A DNA stretch of 64,000 bases from an uncultured Bacteroidota bacterium. GTDB lineage: Bacteria; Bacteroidota; Bacteroidia; Flavobacteriales; Flavobacteriaceae. The notes beneath the pieces were generated by a model, which ran no database searches, was not told where the DNA came from, and worked only from the letters and a program-made list of their open reading frames with translations. The DNA lies in assembly GCA_902598295.1 (NCBI GenBank), contig CACKBA010000003.1, forward strand, positions 24,544-88,543, read 5' to 3'. Below, piece by piece: positions 46,785 through 50,983 of this stretch (position 1 is its first letter; every line of letters starts with the position of its first letter). The translations under genes were made by a program, and so were the position numbers.

Positions 46785-47531
46785 ATGGCAACATATAAAA
46801 AGAAATCAAACAAATTAAGAAAAAGTCGAGTTTCCAGCGAAAATAGCTCAACAAAAAAAGTTTTTGATACACTTGATGTAAGCGCCAGTAAATCGGAATT
46901 TATAATTAGTAAATACCAAAACTATTTCCTTTATGGTGTTTTAGGACTTTTAGTCCTATTTGCTCTCTACTTTACGTACGACAGATATGTTATTCAACCC
47001 AAAATTAATGAATCAAATACTGAAATATTTACCGCTCAAAAGTACTTTGACATGGCTTTAAATACCACAACTGATAAGGATTCACTCTACAAACTTGCAC
47101 TCAATGGCGCAGATGGAAAATTTGGTTTTCTAGATATTATTGATAATTACAAGGGTACTCCAGCAGCAAATATTTCATATTACTCATCTGGTATGGCATA
47201 TTATCAACTAAAAAAATATGATTTAGCTATTGAGTATCTAAATCAATTTTCATCCAAAGATGATGTTCTAAATTCTTTGTCTCTATCAACAATTGGTGAT
47301 TCTTTTGTTCAAATTAACCAATTTGACGATGCACTCAGTTATTATGAAAAAGCTATAAGAGTATCATCTAATAGTTTTACAAAACCAATTATTTTACTTA
47401 AGGCTGGTGATGTGGCAATTAAAACAGGTAACAATAATAAAGCCTTAAAATTTTTCACATCTATAAAAGAAGATTTTCCAAAATCTGCTGAAGCAGATTT
47501 GATAGACATTAAAATTGAGCAACTAAAATAA
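46785..47531 (+). CDS. membrane-anchored tetratricopeptide repeat protein
   Basis: One TM (YFLYGVLGLLVLFALYFTY) then TPR repeats; upstream of ribH. Confidence 0.85.
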   Translation: MATYKKKSNKLRKSRVSSENSSTKKVFDTLDVSASKSEFIISKYQNYFLYGVLGLLVLFALYFTYDRYVIQPKINESNTEIFTAQKYFDMALNTTTDKDSLYKLALNGADGKFGFLDIIDNYKGTPAANISYYSSGMAYYQLKKYDLAIEYLNQFSSKDDVLNSLSLSTIGDSFVQINQFDDALSYYEKAIRVSSNSFTKPIILLKAGDVAIKTGNNNKALKFFTSIKEDFPKSAEADLIDIKIEQLK

Positions 47532-48031
47532 TGTCTAGTAATTATAAGCCTGATTTAGATTTAGAAAAATTAAAATCTGCCGTCAATCTTGGCTCCGTAG
47601 GGAATCGTTATCCGAACAAAAAGTTTGCGATTATATGCTCGGAGTGGAATACAGAAATAATTAATAGATTACTTGATGGTGCTTATCGTTTTTTTGAGGG
47701 AATTGGTATTAAAAGTGATGATATTTTTGAATTGAAAGTACCAGGAAGTTATGAATTAATATATGGTTGTTCCAAAATCCAATCACTGGAAAAATACGAT
47801 GCTATATTGGCGATTGGAAGTATTATAAAAGGTGAAACTTCTCATTATAAATATATTGCTCAATCAGTTTTTGATGGTATTAAAGATTTAAACAATAATG
47901 GTAAATCTCCTATTATATTATGTCTACTCACTGATGATAACTACCAGCAGGCTTTGGATAGGAGTGGGGGAAAATATGGAAATAAAGGATATGATTGTGC
48001 AGCTGCGGCAGTCAAAATGAGTATTATTTAA
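47531..48031 (+). CDS. ribH: 6,7-dimethyl-8-ribityllumazine synthase
   Basis: FAIICSEWNTEIINRLLDGA; VPGSYELIYG; GSIIKGETSHYKYIA. Confidence 0.95.
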   Translation: MSSNYKPDLDLEKLKSAVNLGSVGNRYPNKKFAIICSEWNTEIINRLLDGAYRFFEGIGIKSDDIFELKVPGSYELIYGCSKIQSLEKYDAILAIGSIIKGETSHYKYIAQSVFDGIKDLNNNGKSPIILCLLTDDNYQQALDRSGGKYGNKGYDCAAAAVKMSII

Positions 48032-48470
48032 AATACTTAAAGGGAACTATTAGCATTCCAAAACATTCACCCCCAGTTTTGTGGATATTTTTGTGATGCA
48101 TTTTGTGTGCTCTCCTAATTCCTTTTGCATACCAGTTGTTAGCATTTCTAAATATCTTGAATCTTCTGTGAATAAATATATCGTGTACTATAAAATAAGT
48201 CAGTCCATAAAGGGCAATTCCAATAGCTATTGGTAACCCATAAACAAATCCTAATTGTGCCCATGAAAGAACAAATCCCATACTAATAACAGCATAAAAA
48301 ATGAAGAAAAAATCATTTTTTTCAAACCAGGTGTCATGGTTTTTAACATGGTGATCTTTATGGAGATACCAAAGAAATCCATGCATAATATATTTATGAC
48401 TGAACCAAGCCATGAATTCCATAAAACAAAATGTTCCTATTAATGATAATATCCAAAGAAATGTTTCCAT
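48024..48470 (-). CDS. crtZ: beta-carotene hydroxylase (fatty acid hydroxylase family)
   Basis: 148 aa; HKYIMHG, HKDHHVKNH, HDIFIHRRF, HKMHHKNIH histidine boxes. Confidence 0.9.
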   Translation of the reverse strand: METFLWILSLIGTFCFMEFMAWFSHKYIMHGFLWYLHKDHHVKNHDTWFEKNDFFFIFYAVISMGFVLSWAQLGFVYGLPIAIGIALYGLTYFIVHDIFIHRRFKIFRNANNWYAKGIRRAHKMHHKNIHKTGGECFGMLIVPFKYFK

Positions 48471-49309
48471 TATAAAATGTTTAATCTGTATCTAACATAT
48501 GACCGAGCTAAAACATCTACTTTTTGGTAATTAGGAACTCTAACTCTTTTATTCTTAATTACTGATGTTGATGTTTTATCCAATTTTTTTAACAACCTTT
48601 TGTAATATTTATAAGCAGCATAAACACCAAATTTTGAGTTATTTGGAAGCATATATATACCTTTTAATGCCACCGCGAAATCTTGTTTTATCTCATTTAG
48701 AATTTTTTTCTTTTCTAGATCATCGAATGACTTGTTAACAAGATTGGGGAAATATGTTCTTTTTAATTCTTTTAAATCGTCTTTGTAATCTCTTAAAAAA
48801 TTAACTTTTTGAAAAGCCGATCCAAGTGATATTGCATATGGTTTAAGTTGATTATACATACTAGAATCGCCTTGTACAAAAACTTTAAGACACATCAATC
48901 CAACAACATCTGCTGACCCATATATGTAACTTTTATAATCTTCATAGTTGGCATATTCTTTTTTTTCCAAATCAAGACGCATGCTACTCAAAAATGAATC
49001 AATTAGATGTTTATCAATATTGTGTTTTTTTACAGTTTTTTGAAATGAGTTTAATATAGGGTTTAAACTTATGTTGTTATTTAAAGAATATTCGAGTTCA
49101 TCTATGAATCTGTTCAGAAGTGTTTCTTTATCATAATTATGAAAAGTATCAACAATTTCATCAGCAAATCTTACAAAACCATAAATATTGTAAATATCTT
49201 CTCTAATATTTTTGGATAGCATTCTGGTGGCCAAACTGAAGGAAGTGCTGTACGTTTTGGTTACGTTTCTAGAGCAGTCAGCACATACTTTATCAAATAG
49301 TTCCTTCAT
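48470..49309 (-). CDS. crtB: phytoene synthase
   Basis: TYSTSFSLATRML; YGFVRFADEIVD; KVNFLRDYKDDLKELKRTYFP. Confidence 0.94.
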   Translation of the reverse strand: MKELFDKVCADCSRNVTKTYSTSFSLATRMLSKNIREDIYNIYGFVRFADEIVDTFHNYDKETLLNRFIDELEYSLNNNISLNPILNSFQKTVKKHNIDKHLIDSFLSSMRLDLEKKEYANYEDYKSYIYGSADVVGLMCLKVFVQGDSSMYNQLKPYAISLGSAFQKVNFLRDYKDDLKELKRTYFPNLVNKSFDDLEKKKILNEIKQDFAVALKGIYMLPNNSKFGVYAAYKYYKRLLKKLDKTSTSVIKNKRVRVPNYQKVDVLARSYVRYRLNIL

Positions 49310-50762
49310 TTTTTATAATATTTGCAACAAGTTTACCAGAAACAATTGCAGGTGGGACACCCGGTCCTGGTACTGTTAACTGTCCACTAAAATACAATTT
49401 TTTTACTTTTTTGCTTTTTAATTTTGGTCGTAAAAAGGCAGTTTGTAAAAGTGTATTTGCTAAACCATATGCATTACCACCATAGGAATTGTAGTCTTCC
49501 TTAAAATCTTTGATGCAATATGATCTTTTATAATCAATAAAACTTCTAATTTTCTGCTTTGTCAACTTTTCCATTCTATCCAAAACCATATCAAAATATT
49601 TTTCCCTGATATCATTCGAATCCTCCAAGTTAGTTGCAATTGGTATTAGAATAAAACAGTTTTCATGACCTTTAGGTGCAGTATGCTGAAAAGTTTTTGA
49701 TGTTAAGTTAACATAGAATAAAGGATTCTCAGGCCAAACTGGGTTTGTATAAATCTCGCTAGAATGTTTTTTAAAACTTGTATCAAAAAATAAATTGTGG
49801 TGATTTAGATTTTTTAATCTTTTTTTAATACCGACATAAAATAATAATGAGGATGGAGACCAAACTCTTTTTTCCCAGTATCTGGATGAATAGTTTCTGA
49901 ATTTTTTATCAAGTAAACTTTCAGTATGAGCATAATCAGCACCTGATACAAGGAAATCACAATCTAATTTTTTTCCATTTACTGTTATGCTTTTTACTTC
50001 TCCAGAATCAATATTGATTTTATCAACATTCGAATTTTTATTAAAACTAACACCCTGTTCTTCAGCAATTTTAATCATTGACTTTACCACGTCATAAAAT
50101 CCATTTTTTGGTTGCCATGTTCCTAGTCCAAAATCTGCATAATTCATAAAATTGTAAAAAGCAGGAGTCTTGTTTGGCTTAGCACCTAAAAATAGTACTG
50201 GAAATTTTAAAATTGACCTAAGCATTTCATTTTTGAAAAGGCCATTAACTTGCTTATTTATGTTAGTTAAAAAGAGGTTGAATTTTAAAATTGTTCTTAA
50301 ATTAATTAATTCTAGAATTGAAAAACCTGGCATTTTATATAGCATATCTTTGACAGCTAATTCATAATTATTTTTTGCTTCTCTCAAAAATTTTTTTAAT
50401 TTTTTTCCACTTCCTTTCTCAATATTCTCAAAGGTTTCAATAATTTTATTTACATCAGAGCTGATAGTAACTGCCTCATTATTCTTAAAAAAAACTTTGT
50501 ATCCTGGGTTCAATTTTTTTATTTCATAGAGGTCACTCGATTTTTTATTAAAATCCTTGAAAAATCTGTTAAAAACATCTGGCATCCAATACCAACTTGG
50601 GCCCATATCAAAAGTATATCCATTTGTTTTAAATTGTCTAGCTCGACCTCCAAAACTATCGTTCTTTTCAAAGATTGAAACGTCAAAACCATATTTTGCA
50701 AGATAACATGCCGCTGAAAGGGAGGAAAACCCGGAACCTATTATGAAGACCTTTTTTTTCAA
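49293..50762 (-). CDS. crtI: phytoene desaturase, TTG start
   Basis: MKKKVFIIGSGFSSLSAACYLAKYGFDVSIFEKND; C-terminal YFSGQLTVPGPGVPPAIVSGKLVA. ORF-track start 50813 lies inside the tRNA-Leu gene. Confidence 0.94.
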   Translation of the reverse strand: MKKKVFIIGSGFSSLSAACYLAKYGFDVSIFEKNDSFGGRARQFKTNGYTFDMGPSWYWMPDVFNRFFKDFNKKSSDLYEIKKLNPGYKVFFKNNEAVTISSDVNKIIETFENIEKGSGKKLKKFLREAKNNYELAVKDMLYKMPGFSILELINLRTILKFNLFLTNINKQVNGLFKNEMLRSILKFPVLFLGAKPNKTPAFYNFMNYADFGLGTWQPKNGFYDVVKSMIKIAEEQGVSFNKNSNVDKINIDSGEVKSITVNGKKLDCDFLVSGADYAHTESLLDKKFRNYSSRYWEKRVWSPSSLLFYVGIKKRLKNLNHHNLFFDTSFKKHSSEIYTNPVWPENPLFYVNLTSKTFQHTAPKGHENCFILIPIATNLEDSNDIREKYFDMVLDRMEKLTKQKIRSFIDYKRSYCIKDFKEDYNSYGGNAYGLANTLLQTAFLRPKLKSKKVKKLYFSGQLTVPGPGVPPAIVSGKLVANIIKNEGTI

Positions 50763-50772
50763 AATACTAAAG

Positions 50773-50856
50773 TGCACACGAGAGGACTCGAACCTCCAAG
50801 GGATATTTCCCACTAGGCCCTCAACCTAGCGCGTCTACCAGTTTCGCCACGTGCGC
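50773..50856 (-). tRNA. tRNA-Leu (GAG anticodon)
   Basis: GCGCACGTGGCGAAACTGGTAGACGCGCTAGGTTGAGGGCCTAGTGGG...GGTTCGAGTCCTCTCGTGTGCA; long variable arm. Confidence 0.95.
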
Positions 50857-50864
50857 TAGAATTG

Positions 50865-50937
50865 TGACCTGGCTGGGGCTCGAACCCAGGACCCTCTCCT
50901 TAAAAGGGAGATGCTCTACCAACTGAGCTACCAGGTC
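50865..50937 (-). tRNA. tRNA-Lys (TTT anticodon)
   Basis: GACCTGGTAGCTCAGTTGGTAGAGCATCTCCCTTTTAAGGAGAGGGTCCTGGGTTCGAGCCCCAGCCAGGTCA. Confidence 0.96.
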
Positions 50938-50952
50938 GGATTTAAACGCTTG

Positions 50953-50983
50953 CAAATATAGGACCAATAATATCATTTTTCAA
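50953..50983 (-). promoter_or_regulatory. Promoter of tRNA-Lys/tRNA-Leu/crtIBZ unit: TTG-N20-TATATTTG
   Basis: -33 TTG (caa 50981-50983) and -7 TATATTTG (50953-50960), 15 nt before tRNA-Lys 5' end. Confidence 0.7.

Follow-up and report, generated by a model that had tools for sequence, protein, structure and literature searches.

A carotenoid gene cluster directly behind a tRNA-Lys/tRNA-Leu pair in Flavobacteriaceae and its probable read-through transcription from the tRNA promoter

Results

Organization of the crt locus

The window, that is, the whole 64,000-nucleotide stretch of DNA analysed here, carries on its minus strand a tRNA-Lys gene and a tRNA-Leu gene followed by crtI, crtB and a crtZ-like hydroxylase gene (Table 1). 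With the tRNAs first and a protein gene immediately 3' on the same strand, this is the layout of a tRNA-mRNA polycistronic operon. The gene order and coordinates of the original prediction were re-derived and are all correct, including the overlaps of 17 nt between crtI and crtB (49293-49309) and of 1 nt between crtB and the crtZ-like gene (48470). The putative promoter, of Bacteroidota type, consists of TTG (50983-50981), a 20-nt spacer and TATATTTG (50960-50953); the main sigma factor of flavobacteria recognizes TAnnTTTG as its -7 box (PMC9723704). The crtI product scored 692.9 bits against its NCBIfam profile (cut-off, 640), and no NCBIfam match was found for the crtZ-like gene in the profile search. 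The crtZ-like gene and ribH (47531-48031, plus strand) are convergent, and their ends overlap by 8 nt (48024-48031). In the window's genome (an assembly of 1.24 Mb, 75% complete), a search for lycopene cyclase of the PF05834 type, which leaves out the CrtYcd type, gave no match.

Table 1. Features of the tRNA-crt locus and of the rhodopsin neighborhood. Positions are those of the window unless a locus is named; tRNA bounds follow Rfam, and the ARAGORN 3' end is 1 base longer (encoded C74).
Feature	Position	Strand	Basis
Promoter of the tRNA-Lys/Leu(-crt) unit, TTG-N20-TATATTTG	50953..50983	-	sequence
tRNA-Lys(TTT)	50865..50937	-	ARAGORN; Rfam RF00005, 72.9 bits
tRNA-Leu(GAG)	50773..50856	-	ARAGORN; Rfam RF00005, 49.3 bits
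tRNA-crtI linker CTTTAGTATT, 10 nt, without terminator	50763..50772	-	sequence
crtI, CrtID-type phytoene desaturase, TTG start	49293..50762	-	NCBIfam NF058655
crtB, phytoene synthase family (SQS_PSY)	48470..49309	-	Pfam PF00494, 150.8 bits
crtZ-like hydroxylase (FA_hydroxylase superfamily)	48024..48470	-	Pfam PF04116, 46.8 bits
Rhodopsin and Blh-type dioxygenase genes, divergent neighbors	L213 2702-3424 and 3659-4564	-, +	

The TTG proposed as the crtI start, at 50762, lies 10 nt past the discriminator base of tRNA-Leu. Seven loci of the genus have an in-frame stop 2 to 7 codons 5' of the same TTG, which excludes a start within the tRNA; the candidate starts inside tRNA-Leu (GTG 50777 or 50813) were thereby ruled out and the proposed one was fixed. 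Among the 26 loci with this tRNA-crtI fusion, crtI begins with TTG in 19, GTG in 2 and ATG in 5, and among the non-fused loci it begins with ATG in 90 of 96, in a comparison of loci that are not phylogenetically independent; the shift may represent one or two inherited events. In Flavobacterium johnsoniae, an A favors initiation when it occupies position one of the start codon, -3 or -6 (PMC6847099). The window's crtI has T at the first of these positions, and the linker CTTTAGTATT supplies A at the other two. A weak crtI start placed behind a strong promoter is plausible as a form of tuning.

Conservation of the tRNA-crtI adjacency

The CrtI protein of the window (P0001) was used as the query against the 23 genomes of the genus (incomplete assemblies, 55-87%), 201 genomes of the family and GTDB contigs. 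Conservation in close relatives had been named as a point on which the original prediction could fail, and the adjacency is conserved: tRNA-Leu(GAG) ends (ARAGORN end) 7 to 37 nt 5' of crtI in all 20 of the genus genomes in which crtI is complete. The same adjacency recurs outside the genus in six more distinct loci (L033, L063, L064, L066, L067 and L069), which brings the fused loci to 26, all with a linker of 7 to 37 nt, and tRNA-Leu(GAG) was found directly before crtI in none of the 98 other loci. Because it is kept across the genus and in the six further loci, the adjacency is more than chance, an explanation that we ruled out.

Within the window's genome, gaps of less than 40 nt from a tRNA to an open reading frame (ORF) of at least 80 amino acids are uncommon, occurring at 3 of about 28 tRNA unit ends. 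The tRNA-Lys(TTT) of the locus is the sole tRNA-Lys found among 33 tRNA genes in this 75% complete genome, in a census of retrieved loci. A second close tRNA-protein junction is present in the same genome, where an ORF of 254 amino acids begins with ATG 8 nt behind tRNA-Gly(TCC) (L141, G000:C4:57954-58026) and resembles, by eye, a D-Ala-D-Ala carboxypeptidase.

Loss of the MerR regulator

In 77 of the 98 non-fused loci, a MerR gene with a B12-binding_2 domain lies immediately before crtI, and 30 of those 77 also have tRNA-Lys and/or tRNA-Leu(GAG) in the same orientation farther upstream. In 16 of 29 non-fused loci, a T-run hairpin separates tRNA-Leu from MerR, and TAnnTTTG stands 29 nt 5' of the MerR start in 11 of the 15 loci in which tRNA and MerR are close together. 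Flavobacterium terrigena (L065), the nearest non-fused row outside the clade of fused loci on the crtI tree, has every element: two copies of tRNA-Lys, then tRNA-Leu, the hairpin, the promoter, MerR and crtI. The fused loci have neither the hairpin nor the MerR promoter nor MerR; furthermore, none of the 23 genus genomes has MerR, the only matches there being weak ones over the HTH part. The MerR/B12 regulator in or beside the crt operon that marks CarH/LitR systems is thus missing from the window locus. As judged from these comparisons, the arrangement is derived: the terminator behind the tRNAs has gone, and so have the MerR/B12 regulator and the promoter that served it.

The MerR proteins of the relatives carry the motifs Wx9EH (63 of 72) and [DE]xHxxG (71 of 72) as defined previously (PMC9304148), and the lost regulator would accordingly have resembled CarH/LitR. 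The full classic B12 motif (D/ExHx2G-x41-SxT/V-x22-27-GG) is present in 0 of the 72; therefore, light sensing and B12 binding by the lost regulator are only presumed. MliR of Bizionia was also considered as a relative of the lost MerR and set aside, as the part of its paper available to us gives no link to carotenoids.

The crtI tree (46 rows, mixture model) places all fused loci within one supported clade of 29 rows. The same clade includes L036, which keeps MerR and with which the fused locus L066 groups, as well as L068 and L105, which have another gene upstream of crtI. The fused and non-fused labels consequently need two changes on this tree, and a single origin of the fusion was rejected on it (monophyly of the fused loci; p-AU, 0.0005). 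Two deletions, or one deletion with a later replacement, could have produced this pattern, and recombination is possible too. In L068 and L105, crtI sits behind a ThuA-domain gene; L105 has TATCTTTG 7 nt 5' of the crtI ATG, a sequence that suggests a near-leaderless crtI mRNA made from its own promoter.

Genome compaction offers another reading of the junction, in which the adjacency is a functionless by-product, read-through is trivial and the crt level is set post-transcriptionally. The genomes are indeed small (0.9-1.5 Mb), and the peptidase-like ORF 8 nt behind tRNA-Gly(TCC) fits such a process. We nevertheless regard it as rather unlikely, as the junction is kept in several genera while crtI diverges down to about 62% identity, and the regulator has been consistently lost from the whole genus.

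Promoter and terminator sequences

In all genus loci whose sequence reaches far enough upstream, tRNA-Lys is preceded by TTG-N19/20-TATATTTG, as it is in L063, from another genus; the identical TATATTTG occurs in both L063 and L033, each from another genus. From the tRNA-Lys start to crtI in the window, a Bacteroidota-type scan found no -7 box, even with one mismatch allowed, so that by consensus sequence there is a promoter ahead of the tRNAs and none in between. Near-matches to the -7 box across the clade vary in position, and nearly all are without a -33 TTG. A generic sigma-70 promoter in the linker was rejected as well, since that scan gave 31 matches against a shuffled expectation of 23.5, none of them in the linker. 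Terminator-like hairpins were found in the tRNA-Leu/crtI gap of 0 of 31 fused loci, leaving no terminator between the tRNA and the protein gene. Taken together, the adjacency, the promoter and the lack of a terminator or internal promoter give strong comparative support to the proposal of read-through from the tRNA promoter.

In L064, L067 and L069, a lone tRNA-Leu(GAG) lies between an AraC-like gene (by eye) and crtI, and a standard promoter upstream of the tRNA-Leu was not recognized. These three loci lend some weight to a different explanation, in which crtI has its own promoter hidden in tRNA-Leu or in the tRNA-Lys/Leu pair and the tRNA promoter adds little, its transcript being ended by an unrecognized signal. 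Alternative sigma factors do use other boxes (about 7% of transcription start sites in Flavobacterium psychrophilum; PMC9723704), and the TATCTTTG of L105 makes near-leaderless crtI promoters conceivable. However, the sequence of a tRNA is constrained by its function, the window lacks even a one-mismatch -7 box, the candidates in its relatives shift place and in nearly all cases have no -33 TTG, and none of the fused gaps contains a terminator-like hairpin. A hidden promoter is, in our judgment, improbable.

Formation of the mRNA 5' end

Thirteen genomes of the genus carry canonical RNase Z. Where the surroundings of rnz were looked at, the order is pyrB, a STAS-like gene, rnz and pdxH (a pyrR-pyrB-rnz-pdxH operon). 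In G003, G006, G010, G012 and G021, the genomes nearest to the window by crtI, pdxH comes immediately after the STAS-like gene, with nothing in the unbroken slot where rnz would sit (rnz-less STAS-pdxH junction near 2717 in L219, L221, L222, L223 and L224, versus L217 and L218). No other strong RNase Z match was found in these five genomes. RNase Z was likewise not found in the window's genome, where the window's own contig stops at pyrB in the 75% complete assembly. The best remaining match of the RNase Z search is a PRK02113/PhnP-like hydrolase, a protein whose role as a substitute RNase Z is not supported.

Across the sampled Flavobacteriaceae, tRNA-Lys and tRNA-Leu genes carry only C74 of the CCA end, and nearly all of the 33 tRNA genes of the window's genome encode C74 after the discriminator, mostly without the following CA. 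In the sub-clade of the window, rnz has dropped cleanly out of its operon slot, although the tRNA genes mostly lack an encoded CCA.

The original prediction had the mRNA 5' end made by tRNA 3'-end processing, which, as written, is not supported, given the absence of rnz from its slot in the five closest genomes. It implies that canonical RNase Z makes the linker-cut mRNA in the window's species; most of the genus does have rnz in the pyrR-pyrB-rnz-pdxH operon, but with the empty slot in the five nearest genomes and only the PRK02113/PhnP-like match left, we find this unlikely. RNase E/G is present, and a cut in the AU linker by this enzyme is therefore an alternative to RNase Z.

Discussion

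The gene order, its conservation, the absence of the terminator, the internal promoter and the regulator, and the shift in start codon are direct observations at these loci. They are best explained, with a probability of about 0.78, by expression of the crt operon through read-through from the tRNA-Lys/tRNA-Leu promoter once the terminator and MerR with its promoter had been lost. The crt genes would then probably be transcribed solely as an extension of an essential pair of tRNA genes.

Transcription of the unit, its RNA processing and the regulatory consequence are what we infer, and the course of events may be pictured as follows. The ancestor would have had tRNA-Lys, tRNA-Leu, a terminator, a promoter and a MerR/B12-binding regulator ahead of crtI-crtB. 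Deletion of the terminator, the regulator promoter and the regulator would have left crtI 7 to 37 nt behind tRNA-Leu, so that the sigma-A tRNA promoter would drive one long transcript of tRNA-Lys, tRNA-Leu, crtI, crtB and crtZ. RNase P would release the tRNA 5' ends, and a cut in the short AU linker would create the mRNA 5' end. Most of the genus would use RNase Z for this cut, and the sub-clade of the window a different nuclease, for which RNase E/G is a candidate. Pigment synthesis would then track stable-RNA transcription instead of the MerR regulator, with the weak TTG start restraining crtI translation. The combined scenario, in which loss of the regulator and terminator rewired a whole pigment and retinal-precursor pathway to an essential tRNA promoter, the weak start tunes it and the sub-clade separates the RNAs without RNase Z, is tentative and somewhat doubtful as a whole.

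Operons that join tRNA and protein genes are found in Escherichia coli, as in thrU-tyrU-glyT-thrT-tufB and metY-rimP-nusA-infB. As in those, the tRNA genes lead, and the protein genes would share the transcript. Unlike them, where genes for translation and transcription are attached, the locus described here carries a pigment pathway, and the attachment is derived, through loss of a regulator, a promoter and a terminator. Operons headed by tRNAs are already known; a variant in which a pigment pathway became attached as a CarH-like regulator and its promoter disappeared together with the tRNA terminator appears to be new. Searches of open-licence papers turned up no account of a crt operon driven by a tRNA promoter.

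The ancestral flavobacterial locus resembles the CarH/LitR crt operons of Myxococcus and Thermus (PMC9304148) in having a MerR/B12-binding_2 gene beside crtI, but the clade of the window lacks the regulator, and the MerR proteins of its relatives lack the full classic B12 motif (0 of 72). In Chryseobacterium lacus, transcription of the crt cluster is light induced, and no car/lit operon was found, according to the part of the report available to us (PMC7064467). That cluster also holds crtI, crtB and crtZ in a flavobacterium, as here; unlike the window, the same part describes no tRNA fusion.

Bacterial rhodopsin is encoded in 19 of the 23 genus genomes. In the window's assembly, its gene adjoins one for a Blh-type beta-carotene dioxygenase on the window's contig, about 12 kb outside the window. 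Carotenoid supply may therefore also serve retinal synthesis, and the rewiring may suit a steady need for carotenoid and retinal. The host group probably consists of marine bacteria with small genomes. For such small-genome bacteria, the locus offers a traceable case of regulatory rewiring, in which a pathway beside a light-sensor-like regulator would have passed to stable-RNA transcription. Pigment expression is predicted to be light independent and coupled to growth, and tRNA-mRNA processing without RNase Z becomes testable.
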